NCBI GenBank assembly: GCA_020851555.1
Contig: JADZCM010000038.1
Coordinates: 1 to 64,000, forward strand
Length of the DNA stretch: 64,000 bases
DNA from: Bryobacterales bacterium
GTDB lineage: Bacteria > Acidobacteriota > Terriglobia > Bryobacterales > Bryobacteraceae
Direction: 5' to 3'
Shown: piece after piece, positions 22,305 to 30,202 of the stretch
How positions within the stretch are numbered: the first letter of the stretch is position 1
Layout of the letters: the number at the start of each line of letters is the position of its first letter
The notes under the pieces: generated by a model
What the model was told of the DNA's origin: nothing
What the model saw: only the letters and a program-made list of their open reading frames with translations
Databases searched by the model: none
Made by a program: the position numbers and the translations under genes

Positions 22305-22335
22305 CAGGGCAGCGAAAGTGAGCTGGGCGGACGCC

Positions 22336-23355
22336 ATGGCCAAGCACCTGCCAGCCAAATTAGCGGTTCTGGGTTTCTCCGTTGTTCTGGCCTTTGCCGG
22401 GGCGCTCCTCGGACGCGCGGAGGAGACCGCGCGGGCCCAAGGTCCTCCCCCCAGGGTGCAAATCGTCCCCAAGACCGGCTCGCCCGGACTCCCCGACCCC
22501 GACACTCCCCGCTCCAACCTTCGCGTGGACACGCAACTGGTTCTGATTCCGGTCACCGTGACGGATCCCCTGAACCGGGTGGTGACCGGTCTGGACAAGG
22601 ACTACTTCCGCCTGGAGGAGGACAACGTCAGCCAGGTCATCTCCCACTTCGCCAGTGAGGACGCGCCGATTTCGGCGGGAATCGTCTTCGACACCAGCGG
22701 GAGCATGGGCAACAAGCTCCAGAAATCGCGGCAGGCGGTGGCGGAGTTCTCCAAAACCGCCAACCCGCGCGATGAGTTCTTCCTGGTGCAGTTCAACTCC
22801 AGCCCGGAGCTCACCGTTCCGTTCACGACCGCCACCGAGGAAATCCAGAACCGGATCACGTTCACCCAGTCCCGGGGCAGGACGGCGCTTCTGGACGCCG
22901 TCTATCTGGCGCTGCACGAGATGAAGAAGGCCAGCAACCCGCGCAAGGCCCTGCTGGTGATCTCGGACGGGGGCGACAACAGCAGCCGCTACACCGAGGG
23001 CGAGGTCCGGAACCTGGTGCGGGAGGCTGACGTGCAGGTCTATGGGATCGGCATTTTCGAGCCCCTCGGTTCGCGGGGGCGGACGGCCGAAGAACTGGCG
23101 GGGCCGAGTCTGCTCGATGACATCGCCCAGCAGACCGGAGGACGCGCCTATCCCGTGGAGAACCTGAACGACTTGCCCGACATCGCGCACAAGATCGGAA
23201 TCGAGCTGCGCAATCAGTACGTCCTGGGATATTCCCCCACCAACCAGGTGCGAGACGGCAAATACCGCCGCGTCAGGGTAAAAGTGGTGCAACCCCGCGG
23301 GTTCCCTCCCCTGCGAGCTTTCTGGCGGCTTGGATACTATGCTCCGTCTCAATAG
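22336..23355 (+). CDS. Secreted VWA-domain protein (acidobacterial type), first of a tandem pair
   Basis: 339-aa protein with an N-terminal membrane/signal segment (LAVLGFSVVLAFAGALLG). A beta-rich linker (VDTQLVLIPVTVTDPLNRVVTGLDKDYFRLEED) is followed by a von Willebrand A domain. The MIDAS motif DTSGSMGNK is intact, with a downstream threonine/aspartate region (SRGRTALLDAV, ISDGGDNSS). The layout fits the 'VWFA-related Acidobacterial domain' family, of unknown role, probably periplasmic or surface metal-dependent protein binding. GTG 22318 is an alternative start. Its end overlaps the second VWA gene by 17 bp. Confidence 0.8.
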   Translation: MAKHLPAKLAVLGFSVVLAFAGALLGRAEETARAQGPPPRVQIVPKTGSPGLPDPDTPRSNLRVDTQLVLIPVTVTDPLNRVVTGLDKDYFRLEEDNVSQVISHFASEDAPISAGIVFDTSGSMGNKLQKSRQAVAEFSKTANPRDEFFLVQFNSSPELTVPFTTATEEIQNRITFTQSRGRTALLDAVYLALHEMKKASNPRKALLVISDGGDNSSRYTEGEVRNLVREADVQVYGIGIFEPLGSRGRTAEELAGPSLLDDIAQQTGGRAYPVENLNDLPDIAHKIGIELRNQYVLGYSPTNQVRDGKYRRVRVKVVQPRGFPPLRAFWRLGYYAPSQ

Positions 23356-24313
23356 CCCCCATCTGATATCCGCGCTGTCGCTCGCTCTCCTCGCCCTGGC
23401 GCTTCCGGCGCAGGACCCGGTGTTCCGCTCCGACACGCGGCTGGTGGTGCTGCAAGCCACCGTGGTGGACCGCAACGGCAAGCTCGTTACGAACCTGCCG
23501 CGGAAGGCGTTCAGAGTCTACGAGAACAACGTTGAACAGCAGATCCATACGTTCCTCCAGGAAGACGTACCCGTCTCGCTGGGCCTGGTGATCGACAACA
23601 GCGGCAGCATGCGGGACCGCCGGGAGACGGTGGAATCCGCCTGCCTGGGCCTGGTCAAGGCGTCCAACCGCGAGGATCAGGTCTTCATCGTGAACTTCAA
23701 CGACGAGGCCTACCTGGACGCCCCGTTCACCAGCAGCATCGAGAAACTCGAAGAGGGCGTGGCGCGCATCGATTCCCGCGGCGGGACGGCCATGCGCGAC
23801 GCCATCAGCATGTCCATCGACTACCTGAAGGAGGAGGGCAAGCTGGACAAGAAGGTGCTCATGGTGATCACGGACGGAGATGACAACGCCAGCGCCGTGA
23901 CGCTGGAGCAACTCGTGCGAAAGGCCCAGCAATCCGAGGTCTTGATCTACGGGATCGGGCTGCTGGACCAGGAGGACCGCGGGGCCGCCCGGCGCGCTCA
24001 GCGCGCCATTCGCACGATCTGCGAAGCCTCCGGGGGGCTGGCGTTCTTCCCGGCCACGCTGGCGGAAGTGGGGGATCTCACCCTTCAGGTCGCGCACGAA
24101 CTCCGCAACCAGTACACCATCGCCTACACGCCCTCGAACCAGACGCTGGACGGCAACTACCGGTCCATCCGCCTCAAGGTGGACGCGCCCGACCGGCCCG
24201 TGGCCCGCACTCGCACCGGCTACTATGCCACGCCCGACGAGCAGGCGCGGCCGTCCGCCAAGCCCCGCCTCAGCGTGGATTCCAGGCCCCGGGAAACAGA
24301 GGCCAACCCGTAA
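23339..24313 (+). CDS. Secreted VWA-domain protein (acidobacterial type), second of a tandem pair
   Basis: 324-aa paralogue of the preceding gene with the same order: signal peptide (ISALSLALLALALPAQ), linker (RSDTRLVVLQATVVDRNGKLVTNLPRKAFRVYEN) and VWA domain with MIDAS DNSGSMRDR, FNDEA, SRGGTAMRDAI and ITDGDDNAS. Both end with a strand in which ELRNQY is followed by (V/T)(L/I)(G/A)Y(S/T)P(T/S)NQ. Overlapping reading frames mean coordinated expression, and the pair may act as a heteromer. No enzymatic motif is seen. Confidence 0.8.
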   Translation: MLRLNSPHLISALSLALLALALPAQDPVFRSDTRLVVLQATVVDRNGKLVTNLPRKAFRVYENNVEQQIHTFLQEDVPVSLGLVIDNSGSMRDRRETVESACLGLVKASNREDQVFIVNFNDEAYLDAPFTSSIEKLEEGVARIDSRGGTAMRDAISMSIDYLKEEGKLDKKVLMVITDGDDNASAVTLEQLVRKAQQSEVLIYGIGLLDQEDRGAARRAQRAIRTICEASGGLAFFPATLAEVGDLTLQVAHELRNQYTIAYTPSNQTLDGNYRSIRLKVDAPDRPVARTRTGYYATPDEQARPSAKPRLSVDSRPRETEANP

Positions 24314-24370: not shown

Positions 24371-25894
24371 TTACTTCTCCTCGTGATACTCCTCTTCGGT
24401 ATTGACCGCCCAGATGTTTTCCTTGGAGGAGATCCCCGCCACGATGTTGTCCACGGCGGTCATGGCCGTCAGCATGGAATGATCCTGGTTGTTGTAGCGG
24501 TGCATTCCGTTCCGGCCGATGAGGTACAGGTTCTCGAAACGGTCCAGGTATTCGCGGAGCACTCCGAAGTTCTCGTAGGCGCCGAAGTAGGCCGGGTAGG
24601 TTTTCTGGGTGCGGATCACGGTTGCGTCCCGGACCAGGGCGGGGTCGAGAACGCCGATTCTCTCCAGTTCCGTCTTGGCCAGTTCGACCAGTTCCGCGTC
24701 GGTGCGCGTCCACAGCGAATCGCCTTCGAAGCAGAAGTACTCCAGGCCGATCCAGACTTTGGACGGGTCGGCGGCCAGGTAAGGACTCCAGTTGTGGAAC
24801 AACTGGAGCCGCCCGACCAGAACGTCGGGCTCCTGTATGTAGATCCAGTTGTCCTCGATGGGGCCTCCTCCGGTTTCGTGGACCTCGAGCCTGTCCGCCA
24901 GTAAGCCTACGGTGATGAAATCGCGGTACTCCAGCGCCTCCGCGGTCTCCCGGACGGGTGGGGGCACGTCAGCGTCGAGCGCCCTCACCAGGTCCTTCAC
25001 GGCCATGGTAGAGAAGAAGCAGTCACCCTCGAAACGCCGGGCCTCTCCCGTGGCAGGGTTCACCGCCGTAACCGCCGTAACGCGCCGGCCCGAGCAGTGA
25101 ATGCCGCGCACCTCCCACCCCGTGAGAACCTGTCCGCCCTTGGAGCCTACCCGCCGGGCCACCTCCTCCCACATCTGACCGGGCCCGTATTTCGGATAGA
25201 GGAAGCGCTCGATGAGCGACGTTTCGGTGCCTCGCTGGGCAACGCCGGCAGACTTCCGGAAAATCTGCCGGAAAAAATGGAGGACCGTCCTGGCGACCGA
25301 CAGCCCCTTGACTCTTTGAGATCCCCACTCGGCGCTGATGCGGTCGCAGGGAACGCCCCAGACCTTTTCGGTGTAGTCCTTGAAGAAGGTCCTGTACAGC
25401 TCTGATCCGAAACGGTTGGTGAAGAACTGCTCCAGGTTGCGCTCGGGTCTTACCGGAAACAGCGCCCTCCAAAGATAACTGAGCCCGATGCGGAGCGTGC
25501 GGCGCGCGCCGAGTTTCGCGAGCGTGCCGGGCGTCAGGCGGATGGGGTAGTCGAAGAATTTGCGGAGGAAGTAGATGCGGGACTTCCGGCTGCGGACCAG
25601 CATCACGCGGTCCACCGAGTCCGGCCGCACCCCGGCGCTCTCCATGGGCAGAATGTCAAACCACCACTGCATGACCCTGTCCGACTTGGAGAAGAACCGG
25701 TGGCCGCCGATGTCGATGCGATTGCCCTTGTAGTTGACGGTGCGCGCGATGCCGCCCATGAACTCGCTTCGCTCCAGCACCACCGGCCGGATCTGTGTGC
25801 GCTCAAGCAATTCGCAGGCGGCGGTGAGACCCGCCGGCCCCGCGCCGATGACGATGGCCGTCTGGCTGGACATCTCTAATGACATTAGCATCAC
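24371..25894 (-). CDS. FAD/NAD(P)-dependent oxidoreductase (protoporphyrinogen oxidase / UDP-galactopyranose mutase-like)
   Basis: 507-aa flavoprotein. The N-terminal Rossmann fold carries [20 protein letters not shown], then [27 protein letters not shown], the amine-oxidase-type second FAD motif. The C-terminal [24 protein letters not shown] closes the FAD site. Similar proteins are annotated as protoporphyrinogen oxidases or as NAD(P)-binding proteins in polysaccharide clusters. The N(Q)DHS ending and the HRFFSK motif resemble the latter group. Substrate unknown. The start could be one of three nearby ATGs. It is divergent from the TonB receptor gene. Confidence 0.75.
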
Positions 25895-25928
25895 CCCGGC
25901 GGTAGCACGGAATGAACATTAGTGCTAC
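25876..25928. promoter_or_regulatory. AT-rich palindromes between the oxidoreductase and TonB receptor genes
   Basis: Two structures stand out in this 44-bp gap and its edges. CTAATG-A-CATTAG (25876-25888) is a 6-1-6 palindrome, and its core recurs as aatgaacattag at 25911-25922. GTAGCAC (25902-25908) and GTGCTAC (25922-25928) form a perfect 7-bp inverted repeat just before the receptor start. In a GC-rich genome such AT-rich repeats suggest an operator. The 6-1-6 form is reminiscent of Fur-family boxes, but that link is only suggestive. Confidence 0.45.
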
Positions 25929-25938
25929 GATGGACGGC

Positions 25939-27963
25939 ATGAGACGATTAGCTCCTGCTGTCTTGTTCCTGGCGGCTGGCCGTCTGATTGCCGCGGATCC
26001 GGTAGCGGTGAAGGTGGTGGATCCGCATGGATTCGGGGTCCCCGGGGCCGTGGTGGAGGTCCGTGATCCGGCCGACGGCCGCACTATCGCAGCGGTCAGG
26101 TCCAACCCGGCGGGTGAAGCGGAACTGCCCCTCACGCTGCCGGCGGCGCTCCGCGCCTCGGCCGACGGTTTCGATGCCGCGACGGTGCCGGTGAGAGCCG
26201 GGCAGGCCGGTCCGGTCACGATCCGTCTGACTCCGGCCGTGGTCCGCTCCTCGGTCGAGGTGGTGGTGAGCGAGCCGGCCCTGGTGGAGACGGCCACGGT
26301 GGGCACGGCGGTGGAGATCGATCGCACGGGCGCCCGGACGGTTTTCGACGCGGTGGACCAGCTTGTGCCCGGAGCGTTCGTGACGCGGCGCGGCGTCATG
26401 GGCTACGGCATCGCCACCAACGGGACCGGCATGGTCTCCATTCGAGGGATCGGCGGCTCGCCTAATACGGGTGTTCTGATCGTGGTGGACGGGCGGCCGG
26501 ACATGCAGGGATTGATGGGTCACCCGCTGCCGGACTTTTACAGCCTTTCGAACGCTGAGAGCGTCAGTGTGACCGAAGGTCCCGCTTCCGTCCTTTACGG
26601 GAGCAACGCCATGGGCGGCGCTATCGAGATCTTTCCCAGCAGGCCCCTGGGAGGAACGCACACCCGCTTGTCGAGTTCCCTCGGTTCCTTCCTGACCGGC
26701 CAGCACCGGCTGGCGCATGAAACCCGCTGGGAGAAGACCTACTATACGCTCCATGCCGGGATCGACCACACCCGCGGGGAACGCGACGGCGCGGCCTACC
26801 GCAGCAAGGACGCCGCTCTGGGATTCGGCCGGGACCTGTCTTCAGCCTGGCGGGCTTCTCTTCAGGGGCGTTACGGCCACTTCCACGTGGAGGACCCGGG
26901 CCCGGTAACCGCGCCGCTGGCAGGGAGCTACGCCCGGGTCGGCCGCGGAGGATTCAGCCTGAACCTGGACAACGGGTACGGCCGCACCTGGGGGTACCTC
27001 CGGCTGTTTTCGAGCCATGGCCGGCACATCATCACGGACGGCTTCCGCTCGGTGGACAGCACCACCGGGGCGCGCGTCCACCAGTCGTTCTCCCTGACCT
27101 CGCGCCTGGCGCTGGATGCCGGAACGGAGGCTTTCTCTTACGGCGGCAGGGCCACCAATGTGCTCGGCGGGCTGAACTACGGCGAGCATCACATCAGCAC
27201 GGCAGCCGGGTTCTCCCGGGTGCAGTACAACGCCGGCTCGCGGCTGCGGCTGAACACCGGGCTGCGCTACGAGCACAACTCCGCGTACGGCCAAATCGCG
27301 GTGCCGGAATTCGGCGCCAGCTTCAAGCTCCGCACGGGGTACACGCTGGGCGTCATGGCGGGAAAGGGCTTCCGCAGCCCCACCATCCGGGAACTCTACC
27401 TGTTCCCGGCACCCAATCCCCTGCTTCGGCCGGAGACCTTGTGGAACTACCAGGCTACCTTGCGCCTGGAGCCGTCCCGGAGCTTCCAGTCTTCGATCAC
27501 CGCCTACTACGCGGACGTGCGTGACATGATTGTGACCACGGGCAGGTTCCCGAACCTGGCCTTGCGCAACTCGGGGGTTGCGCTGAACCGGGGTGTTGAG
27601 ACGACGGTTCGCTGGAGGCCGCTCCCGCGGGTGCAGTTGACGAACGGGTACGCGTACCTGCGATCCACCAACCTTGCCCCTTACATCCCCGCGCACAAGT
27701 GGAACTTCGCGGCGGACCTGGACGCCGGCAAGGCTTACCTTCGCGCGGGGGTTACAGCCGTCGGCGAGCGGTGGGCGAATGCGGCCCGGACTGCGCGGAT
27801 GGGCAGTTACTCGACCGTGAGCCTCAAGGGCACGCTTCCGGTGGGCCGCGGCCGCAGTTTCTTCGTGATGCTGGACAACCTGCTGGATCGCAGGTACGAG
27901 GTTGTGCCGGGATATCCCATGCCGGGAGTGAACGCGGCCGGCGGGTTTACCTTGGAATTCTGA
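25939..27963 (+). CDS. TonB-dependent outer-membrane receptor
   Basis: 674-aa protein. After a signal peptide (LAPAVLFLAAGRLIAA) comes a carboxypeptidase-regulatory-like domain (AVKVVDPHGFGVPGAVVEVRD). The plug follows (GYGIATNGTGMVSIRGIGG, VLIVVDGRPDMQGLMG, SVSVTEGPASVLYGSNAMGG), then a 22-strand-type barrel ending GGFTLEF. Siderophore, cobalamin or metal-chelate receptors have this design (the DGRP and GPASVLYGSNAMGG signatures are BtuB/FepA-like). Its stop overlaps the ECF S-component start by 1 bp, so the cargo is probably handed to that inner-membrane transporter. ATG 25930 is another possible start. Confidence 0.9.
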   Translation: MRRLAPAVLFLAAGRLIAADPVAVKVVDPHGFGVPGAVVEVRDPADGRTIAAVRSNPAGEAELPLTLPAALRASADGFDAATVPVRAGQAGPVTIRLTPAVVRSSVEVVVSEPALVETATVGTAVEIDRTGARTVFDAVDQLVPGAFVTRRGVMGYGIATNGTGMVSIRGIGGSPNTGVLIVVDGRPDMQGLMGHPLPDFYSLSNAESVSVTEGPASVLYGSNAMGGAIEIFPSRPLGGTHTRLSSSLGSFLTGQHRLAHETRWEKTYYTLHAGIDHTRGERDGAAYRSKDAALGFGRDLSSAWRASLQGRYGHFHVEDPGPVTAPLAGSYARVGRGGFSLNLDNGYGRTWGYLRLFSSHGRHIITDGFRSVDSTTGARVHQSFSLTSRLALDAGTEAFSYGGRATNVLGGLNYGEHHISTAAGFSRVQYNAGSRLRLNTGLRYEHNSAYGQIAVPEFGASFKLRTGYTLGVMAGKGFRSPTIRELYLFPAPNPLLRPETLWNYQATLRLEPSRSFQSSITAYYADVRDMIVTTGRFPNLALRNSGVALNRGVETTVRWRPLPRVQLTNGYAYLRSTNLAPYIPAHKWNFAADLDAGKAYLRAGVTAVGERWANAARTARMGSYSTVSLKGTLPVGRGRSFFVMLDNLLDRRYEVVPGYPMPGVNAAGGFTLEF

Positions 27964-28502
27964 TGCCGGGTCTTCATTCGGGCCGCCTGCGGTGGATGGT
28001 CCTGAACGCGGCGATCATGGCCCTGGGCCTCATCCTGCCGATCGCCTTCCATGCGGTAGGGTTGGGGAGCAAGTTCCTCCCCATGCTCCTCCCGCTGCTT
28101 CTGAACGGTTTTTTGTCACCGCCCGGCTGGGCGATTCTGACCGGAGCGGCCACGCCGCTGGTCTCCGCCCTGGCGACCGGCATGCCGCCCCTTTATCCGC
28201 CGGTCGCCGCCATCATGTCTGTCGAGTGCGCGGTGCTCGCGGCGGTGGCGGGCCTGGTTCACCGCGCCACGAACCGCCGCGTATGGCCGGCGCTGGCGGC
28301 CGCCGTGGTGTGCGGACGCCTGACCTCGGCCGGGCTATCATGGACCGTGGCGGAATGGTTGGGCCTCCCCGCCAGGCTCTCGGTGGCAGCCTCGATGATT
28401 CAGGGACTGCCCGGAGTCGCGCTCCAGTTCGCGGTGGTGCCGCTGGTGCTCAAGGTCCTGAAAACCAGGAAGGGACCGCTGTTCGCAGATGCCCGAGAGT
28501 GA
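27963..28502 (+). CDS. ECF transporter S component (substrate-binding membrane subunit)
   Basis: 179-aa membrane protein with about five to six helices. The sequence around SKFLPMLLPLLLNGFL, WAILTGAATPLVSALATGMPPLYPP and ECAVLAAVAGLV matches the ECF_trnsprt-type pattern, in which a conserved P(L)LS..(T)GMPPL loop follows the third helix. Members with this loop include vitamin importers of the CbrT/PanT type. The substrate cannot be read from the sequence. Linkage to a TonB receptor with BtuB-like features and the presence of corrinoid enzymes elsewhere in the window make a corrinoid or metal chelate plausible. It overlaps the methyltransferase gene by 14 bp. Confidence 0.7.
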   Translation: MPGLHSGRLRWMVLNAAIMALGLILPIAFHAVGLGSKFLPMLLPLLLNGFLSPPGWAILTGAATPLVSALATGMPPLYPPVAAIMSVECAVLAAVAGLVHRATNRRVWPALAAAVVCGRLTSAGLSWTVAEWLGLPARLSVAASMIQGLPGVALQFAVVPLVLKVLKTRKGPLFADARE

Positions 28503-29100
28503 CAAGAAACGATATTTCAACGGCCTGGCCGCCGATTGGGACAACCTGCCGAGGATGGACGGCTCCGACGAGAAAGTGCGCCGGTACGTCGCTCAAAGCG
28601 CGGCGGGCGCGCCTTCCAGGATTCTTGACGTGGGCTGCGGAACCGGCATTTTGCTCGCCGCGCTTCTCGAAAGGCTGCCTGAGGTAGAGTGCGTCGTGGA
28701 AGTGGACTTCGCCATTGAGATGCTCCGCCAGAACGCGTACAATCTGTCCGACCGGCGGGTCAGCCGGGTTTGCGCCGACGCGCTGCGCCTTCCCGCCGCC
28801 TCAGGCTCATTCGACCTGGTTCTGTGCTTCGGCATTCTGCCGCACCTCAGCGACGGCGCCGCCGCCCTGGCCGAGTTCCTGCGGGTCCTGCAACCCGGCG
28901 GCGCGCTTACCGTCGGGCACCTGGCGGGGAGCAAGGAACTGAACGCCTTCCACGGCTCGCTCGACGGCCCCGTTTCGAAGGACGTGCTGCTTCCGTCGGA
29001 CGAATTGGCGCGGGCCCTCGGCAAAGCCGGGGCGGTTCGCATTCACGCCGAGGAGGATCCCGGTTGGTACTTCGTTCGCGCGGAAAAGCCCGCCGCCTGA
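28489..29100 (+). CDS. SAM-dependent methyltransferase embedded in the TonB-ECF operon
   Basis: 203-aa class I methyltransferase. The SAM-binding motif I is ILDVGCGTGILLAALLERL, the acidic residue ends VVEVDFAIEML, motif II region is ADALRLPAASGSFDLVLCFG, and LRVLQPGGAL follows. The opening KKRYFNGLAADWD is typical of UbiE-like enzymes acting on small molecules. It overlaps both the S component and the T component, so it is made with the transporter and may modify the imported compound or recycle a by-product. No methyl acceptor can be deduced. Confidence 0.8.
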   Translation: MPESDKKRYFNGLAADWDNLPRMDGSDEKVRRYVAQSAAGAPSRILDVGCGTGILLAALLERLPEVECVVEVDFAIEMLRQNAYNLSDRRVSRVCADALRLPAASGSFDLVLCFGILPHLSDGAAALAEFLRVLQPGGALTVGHLAGSKELNAFHGSLDGPVSKDVLLPSDELARALGKAGAVRIHAEEDPGWYFVRAEKPAA

Positions 29101-29513
29101 CGCGGCGGCTGCTGCCGCTCCTCCCCATTGTGTTGTTCGCGGGCATGCTGGCGCTGATGCAGTGGGTGGCGGGCATGCCGGTCACCTGGCTGTGGCTGAA
29201 GACGATTGTGGTGTGCCTGGCGGCCATGGCCGTGGTGCGGTTCCTGCCCTGGGACCGGTGGCTGTTCCGGCTCCGGCGGGGCAGCCTGCTGTTTCAGCTT
29301 ACGCTGTTCGCTCTCTTTGTCAGGCACTTCGCCGTCATTCTTCTGGCCGAAGCCCGCCGCGCGCTGACCGCCCGTTCGCTGGCTGCGCCGAACCAATACG
29401 GCAAGGGCTGGTTCCGTTCTTTGGCGTGCGCCGTGAGTTCGTTCTTCGCCCGCTCCATCCTGCGCGCGGAACGCTTCTATGCGGGGCTGTGGGTGCGGGG
29501 GATCGGCGAATGA
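29064..29513 (+). CDS. Minimal ECF transporter T component (EcfT/CbiQ-like)
   Basis: 149-aa membrane protein with three clear helices (LLPLLPIVLFAGMLALMQWV, WLWLKTIVVCLAAMAVVRFL, LLFQLTLFALFVRHFAVILLA). The C-terminal cytoplasmic part has two EcfT-style coupling segments, EARRALTARSL and RAERFYAGLWVRG. EcfT proteins normally have 220-270 residues and five or more helices, so this is an unusually short version. The TTG at 29064 is the first usable start in frame and lies inside the methyltransferase gene. The stop overlaps the ATPase start as ATGA. Identification rests on position and the coupling motifs. Confidence 0.65.
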   Translation: MVLRSRGKARRLTRRLLPLLPIVLFAGMLALMQWVAGMPVTWLWLKTIVVCLAAMAVVRFLPWDRWLFRLRRGSLLFQLTLFALFVRHFAVILLAEARRALTARSLAAPNQYGKGWFRSLACAVSSFFARSILRAERFYAGLWVRGIGE

Positions 29514-30202
29514 GGCGGGTGCTGGAGGTCGAGCGGCTGCGCTTCGGCTTCGATCCGCCCAGCGAGGTTCTGCACGGCGTCAGCTTCGCCGTCAACGAGG
29601 GGGAGTGCCTGGGCATCGTGGGCGCCAACGGGAGCGGTAAGAGCACTCTGCTGTGGTGCGTGCTCGGGCTTTACCACGCCGGCGGCTCGGTGAAATTGTT
29701 CGGCGAGCCGTTGTCCCGGAAGAACCGGCACAGAATCGGCGCGGTCTTCCAGAACCCCGAGGACCAGCTCTTCATGCCGAGGCTGTTGGAGGACGTAGCG
29801 CTGCCGCTGATCAACCGCGGCGTTCCGGCCTCTACCGCCGGGAAGCAGGCTTTGGCGGCGTTGGAGGCGGCCGGTCTGGGTCACGCCGCGGGCCGGCCGG
29901 CGGCCAAGCTCAGCCTGGGCGAGCGGAAACGGGCGGCGATAGCCGCGGCGCTGGTCACCTCGCCCGAGTTGCTGATCCTGGACGAACCCACGGCGGAGCT
30001 CGACGGGCGGTCCGTGCGCAGGCTTGTGGAGCTGCTGGGCGGGCTCACGGTGACGCGGCTCGTCGCCAGCCACGACCTGGAGTTTCTCAGGCGCCTTGGC
30101 GCCCGGCTGCTGGTCCTGCGGGACGGCGCAGTGATGGCGGAAGGCCCGGCCGCGGACATCCTGGAGAACCGGGCGCTGCTGGAAGAGGCAGGGTTGGTCT
30201 GA
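29510..30202 (+). CDS. ECF transporter ATPase (EcfA/CbiO-like)
   Basis: 230-aa ABC ATPase. Walker A is GANGSGKST, the Q-loop is VFQNPEDQLF (the NPEDQ form is characteristic of CbiO/EcfA ATPases), the signature is LSLGERKR, Walker B is LLILDEPTAELD, and the switch histidine is in VASHDLEFL. A single ATPase gene implies a homodimer powering the S/T membrane pair. Last gene of the TonB-S-methyltransferase-T-A operon. It ends 15 bp before a convergent lipoprotein gene. Confidence 0.88.
   Translation: MRRVLEVERLRFGFDPPSEVLHGVSFAVNEGECLGIVGANGSGKSTLLWCVLGLYHAGGSVKLFGEPLSRKNRHRIGAVFQNPEDQLFMPRLLEDVALPLINRGVPASTAGKQALAALEAAGLGHAAGRPAAKLSLGERKRAAIAAALVTSPELLILDEPTAELDGRSVRRLVELLGGLTVTRLVASHDLEFLRRLGARLLVLRDGAVMAEGPAADILENRALLEEAGLV

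Follow-up and report, generated by a model that had tools for sequence, protein, structure and literature searches.

A NikR-type operator and a built-in methyltransferase in a TonB–ECF operon of Bryobacteraceae: a probable importer of nickel chelates

What cargo would be carried by an operon that joins a TonB-dependent outer-membrane receptor to an energy-coupling factor (ECF) importer, and why should a methyltransferase be encoded in its middle? The question is raised by positions 25939–30202 of a 64-kb stretch of the genome of a soil acidobacterium of the Bryobacterales (contig JADZCM010000038.1, positions 1–64,000; the whole of this stretch is referred to as the window), where five genes lie end to end on the plus strand and specify the receptor, an ECF S component, a class I S-adenosylmethionine (SAM)-dependent methyltransferase (MT), a short T component and an ATPase (Table 1). 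The operon is best described as a NikR-controlled TonB–ECF nickel importer with a built-in MT; that NikR represses it, and that its cargo is a nickel chelate which is methylated on entry, is reasonably probable. Open-access literature searches revealed no description of the cassette, which is not proof of novelty. From receptor to ATPase, successive genes overlap by 1, 14, 37 and 4 bp; the original prediction, made from this DNA alone, had the genes and the first three overlaps right and gave the last as 3 bp. The 37-bp overlap of the MT and T genes hinges on a TTG start of the latter, and this start is uncertain.

The case for nickel begins directly before the receptor gene, with a perfect inverted repeat, GTAGCAC-N13-GTGCTAC. 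The published NikR signal of delta-proteobacteria is GTGTTAC-[N13/14]-GTAACAC, with a reversed form GTAACAC-[N13/14]-GTGTTAC (PMC545781). The common Bryobacteraceae site (arm GTAGCAC) departs by one base per arm from this reversed form (GTAACAC); the exact reversed form is carried by L026 and L058, and the GTGTTAC form is found at cassettes of distant families (L062, L064, L075, L116 and L117). On average, 0.025 matches to the degenerate pattern are expected in a mono-shuffled window of 64 kb. Among 12 Terriglobia cassette starts that were checked the site begins at −36 to −52 in 11 and at −85 in one. Of the 29 cassette genomes, 18 have the motif ahead of the cassette and eight others have nikR adjoining it, giving an operator or an adjacent nikR in 26.

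This motif also occurs at nickel genes elsewhere. In the bacterium's own genome the degenerate pattern was matched three times, one copy (contig C56) lying between nikR and a divergent nikM-nikQ-nikO operon; another match, C50:16999, falls within what looks like a coding stretch and was put down to chance. A perfect copy stands ahead of a TonB-DUF4198-nikM-Q-O operon in genome G438, another copy directly precedes CbiM/NikM in G225, and in G010 the motif is situated between NikR and CbiM, while in five genomes of genus g12 the genome's only match is the one at the cassette. As read from these sequences, the motif is a mark of nickel genes independently of the cassette.

Neighbour clustering flagged a ribbon-helix-helix gene at several cassettes, and this proved to be NikR, the nickel-responsive repressor; in 11 genomes it is encoded no farther than ~3 kb from the cassette, and the bacterium's own NikR scores 206 bits against an NCBIfam equivalog model whose cut-off is 105 bits. 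The NikR_C domain was found in 29 of 29 cassette genomes vs 16 of 28 other sampled genomes (Fisher p ~4e-5, uncorrected for kinship). Most known bacterial nickel importers are of the NikMNQO, NikABCDE or NiCoT types. CbiM/NikM is missing from 16 of the 18 cassette genomes outside the class, and 13 of these 16 are also without a NicO match, yet NiFe-hydrogenase homologues occur in nearly all cassette genomes; the bacterium's own genome specifies a hydrogenase large subunit with a C-terminal DPCxxC and a small-subunit-like frame beside it. To judge by gene content, the cassette looks like the main candidate nickel importer in many distant genomes.

The arrangement is, on the evidence of gene order, not due to chance, because all five genes recur in the same order in other Bryobacteraceae (29–63% protein identity) and the S, MT, T and ATPase genes (S-MT-T-A) recur in distant Acidobacteriota families. 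A phylum-wide search of 396 Acidobacteriota genomes with an S-component profile yielded 22 further matches. In 18 of them the MT and ATPase follow S, with a recognised T gene or a T-sized gap between, and a receptor stands ahead of S in most. The neighbourhood comparison in relatives thus bears out the co-conservation of receptor, S component and MT on which the original prediction depended. The front receptor is missing from some cassettes (L062, L065, L067–L069 and L117), and in seven genomes without an adjacent receptor no close receptor was found elsewhere, weak matches being seen in two only. Since several cassettes without a receptor retain S-MT-T-A, these four genes are the constant core and the receptor is not a fixed part of it. 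The idea of a one-operon system reaching from outer to inner membrane therefore applies here, where the five genes are contiguous, but not to cassettes that dispense with the receptor.

The S component (P0002) holds the chief indication of the form in which nickel would be carried. It belongs to Pfam ECF_trnsprt (PF12822; 34.5 vs cut-off 30.7 bits), and neither PF01891 nor an NCBIfam CbiM model was matched in the Pfam and NCBIfam searches. As the original prediction implied, it lies outside the known vitamin families: no named vitamin S family rose above its NCBIfam cut-off (FolT, 22.2 vs 60 bits), and a search of PDB sequences gave no match. Its predicted structure (predicted local distance difference test, pLDDT, 81.8) matched RibU, ThiT, FolT, PanT and BioY at Z 12–17 and CbiM at Z 11.1, a modest gap. 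Helix 1 carries AxxxA at residues 16–20, Ala16 and Ala20 being nearly invariant, which in S components is the docking motif for the ECF module (PMC11109136). The invariant residues include His30, Glu88 and Arg119; His30 is kept in 30 of 30 and is the sole invariant histidine, the aligned S components having no conserved histidine at residue 2 and no other histidine cluster. In CbiM and NikM a conserved His2 (N-terminal Met-His) is the start of the metal site. The modelled fold is of the vitamin type, without the metal site of NikM, and for this reason the cargo is most likely a nickel chelate. His30, Glu88 and Arg119 would fit a pocket that holds an organic nickel chelate and gives the metal a single ligand from the protein; NikA likewise contributes one ligand to the metal of a nickel chelate. 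The nearest S relatives outside Acidobacteriota are those of Clostridiaceae (Bacillota), which are solitary, without MT, T or A. At two such loci (L009, 5880–7512; L010, 3304–4132) the gene after the S relative specifies a kinase-like P-loop region, and the pair is possibly an importer of a different nutrient. Among plasmids the S protein had a single weak match, in Subdoligranulum, which is unannotated.

The MT possesses a Rossmann class I domain with an intact SAM motif (DxGxGTG), matches Methyltransf_25/11 above the Pfam cut-off and was modelled at a pLDDT of 92.9. Its invariant residues are His119, His144, His155 and Asp165. In three genomes of one genus (L065, L068 and L069) S and MT form a single open reading frame, and in a fourth genome of that genus the two are separate. 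The fusion ties the MT to the cargo-binding subunit, which argues for action on the cargo at the membrane. The MT probably modifies the imported chelator, and nickel would be released or trapped in consequence.

The following course of events is proposed. When nickel is plentiful, NikR would bind the operator and repress the operon; when it is scarce, the TonB receptor would bring a nickel chelate across the outer membrane. The S component would bind it, with His30 as a probable direct ligand of the nickel, and its transfer into the cytoplasm would be powered by the T subunit and ATPase. The MT, joined to the S domain in some relatives, would methylate the chelator and thereby free the nickel, or else bar the chelator from leaving or rebinding; most simply, the chelator would be methylated after entry and its affinity for nickel lowered. 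A bolder version, in which S and MT make up a group-translocation importer and the transporter itself methylates the imported nickel chelate, is conceivable but doubtful. In this version, put forward just as tentatively, the metal would be freed or trapped by methylation instead of by reduction, hydrolysis or phosphorylation, and the S-MT fusion would be such a device in its direct form. The fusion raises the biochemical question of whether a transporter methylates its own cargo.

The alternative that survives best is that bare Ni2+, or a simple histidine complex, is imported as by NikM and that the MT has a side role, for instance in making or recycling a secreted nickelophore. The NikR-type regulation speaks for it, other known NikR-linked ECF systems import ions, and in distant genomes the cassette stands in for NikM. 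On the other hand, the S component offers His30 alone in place of His2 or a histidine cluster, its closest folds are vitamin S components rather than CbiM (if by a modest difference), and nickelophore synthesis hardly explains the S-MT fusion; moreover, neighbour clustering revealed no other biosynthesis gene travelling with the cassette. We regard this explanation as unlikely. Distinctly less probable is the import of a vitamin or cofactor, placed under NikR because a nickel enzyme needs it, with the MT as a salvage enzyme. The vitamin-type S fold and the kinase-like gene adjoining the clostridial homologues speak in its favour, but the S profile matches no vitamin family or PDB sequence, and the cassette is the sole NikR-linked importer found in many distant genomes where NikM and NicO are missing.

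The receptor has Plug and barrel domains well above the Pfam cut-offs and a CarboxypepD_reg domain just above, and its best NCBIfam and PDB matches are to BtuB. Import of a corrinoid (or another tetrapyrrole) that the MT would modify, suggested by this match and by the weak similarity of the MT to corrinoid-associated CpaM, is very improbable, since the scores fall far under the cut-offs (107 vs 599.7 bits for the TonB-B12, or BtuB, equivalog model; 46.6 vs 180 bits for CpaM), a riboswitch search of the window and nine relative loci yielded tRNAs only and no cobalamin riboswitch, and the operator and neighbouring nikR point elsewhere. Among the cargoes entertained in the original prediction the metal chelate has gained, with nickel now indicated by the NikR-type operator, and the corrinoid has lost ground with the lack of a riboswitch.

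Several observations weigh against a nickel-chelate importer. BtuB is the nearest characterised relative of the receptor. No match to the strict site pattern was found in the vicinity of five of the cassettes (L056, L057, L060, L061 and L063), in four of which nikR adjoins the cassette, and the comparison of 29 with 28 genomes carries no phylogenetic correction. The model for the NiFe-hydrogenase homologues (PF00374) can also pick up complex-I-like proteins. Bryobacteraceae carriers of the cassette have nikM too, so that it is not their only candidate nickel importer. Finally, a plasmid search with the MT revealed an enzyme of Chloroflexota that has these invariant residues too and lies among unrelated genes; the family and its residues are therefore not nickel-specific, and the MT alone says little about the cargo.

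The T component is too diverged for a Pfam match and scores only 16.9 bits against CbiQ, whereas the gene at the same position in a distant relative (L056) specifies a 241 aa CbiQ above the cut-off. The Bryobacteraceae proteins (L002–L030; 137–166 aa) lack the N-terminal part of CbiQ and are unusually small for an ECF T subunit. In several relatives the T gene begins at the stop codon of the MT gene, so its shortness is not merely a matter of start choice. The ATPase matches ABC_tran above the Pfam cut-off, and its best NCBIfam matches are ECF_ATPase_2, cbiO and ECF_ATPase_1. The S, T and A components of an ECF transporter are thus encoded together, T being assigned only through its CbiQ-positive relative.

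Comparison with known systems places the cassette closest to NikMNQO and NikKMLQO, with which it shares the ECF architecture, a single ATPase, a CbiQ-type T component (in relatives) and a NikR-type operator. It differs in that the S component is of PF12822 rather than CbiM/NikM, in the lack of NikN, NikK and NikL, in the presence of an MT and in the strong shortening of T in Bryobacteraceae. A TonB receptor is sometimes found in the same operon as the known systems, as in G438 and in Caldithrix, where such receptors were reported beside nikMNQO genes (PMC5317091). With these precedents, the pairing of a TonB receptor with an ECF importer devoid of a binding protein, which the original prediction had considered unusual, is no longer so; it is the S component, of vitamin type, and the MT that are unusual. 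The vitamin S components (RibU, ThiT, FolT, PanT and BioY) have the six-helix fold and the AxxxA of helix 1 in common with that of the cassette, which is set apart by the lack of a family match above cut-off, by its own T and A in the operon and by nickel-type regulation. BtuB-BtuCDF likewise combines a TonB receptor, and one nearest to that of the cassette, with an ATP-driven inner-membrane importer, but the cassette has no BtuC, BtuF or riboswitch, and an ECF module takes the place of a type II ABC importer. The expected logic, by which a TonB receptor and then an ATP-driven importer take up a metal chelate, is that of CntO-CntABCDF opine metallophore uptake, a comparison drawn partly from general knowledge; here, by contrast, there is no binding protein and no conserved opine dehydrogenase or nicotianamine-synthase-like gene, and the importer is of a different class.

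If the reading as a nickel-chelate importer is correct, the cassette would represent a class of NikR-controlled nickel importers in which the cargo subunit is of the vitamin type, and would account for the nickel supply of those Acidobacteriota that have NikR and hydrogenase homologues without NikM or NicO. Its continuity from outer to inner membrane would offer a compact test of chelate passage across the Gram-negative envelope without a binding protein.

Table 1. Location of the candidate operator and the five genes within the window
Feature	Position	Strand	Basis or remark
Candidate NikR-type operator, perfect inverted repeat GTAGCAC-N13-GTGCTAC	25902..25928		−37 to −11 from receptor start codon
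TonB-dependent outer-membrane receptor, 674 aa	25939..27963	+	CarboxypepD_reg, plug and barrel
ECF S component (substrate-binding membrane subunit), 179 aa	27963..28502	+	Pfam ECF_trnsprt; predicted structure
Class I SAM-dependent methyltransferase (MT), 203 aa	28489..29100	+	Methyltransf_25/11; predicted structure
Short ECF T component, 149 aa from TTG	29064..29513	+	Relatives 137–166 aa; CbiQ at equivalent position in L056
ECF ATPase, 230 aa	29510..30202	+	ABC_tran; NCBIfam ECF ATPases

On the other side of the operator, and beginning 8 bp before it, a gene resembling a flavin adenine dinucleotide (FAD)-dependent oxidoreductase or mutase (24371–25894, minus strand) diverges from the cassette; at this distance NikR could affect it too. 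Farther upstream (22318–24313) two adjoining genes specify similar VWA-type secreted proteins. In three relatives (L142, 5209; L143, 5312; L144, 4935) the NikR-type motif was found ahead of, or no more than a few hundred bases from, further large frames that resemble TonB receptors, which suggests that in Bryobacteraceae more outer-membrane receptors are under nickel control.

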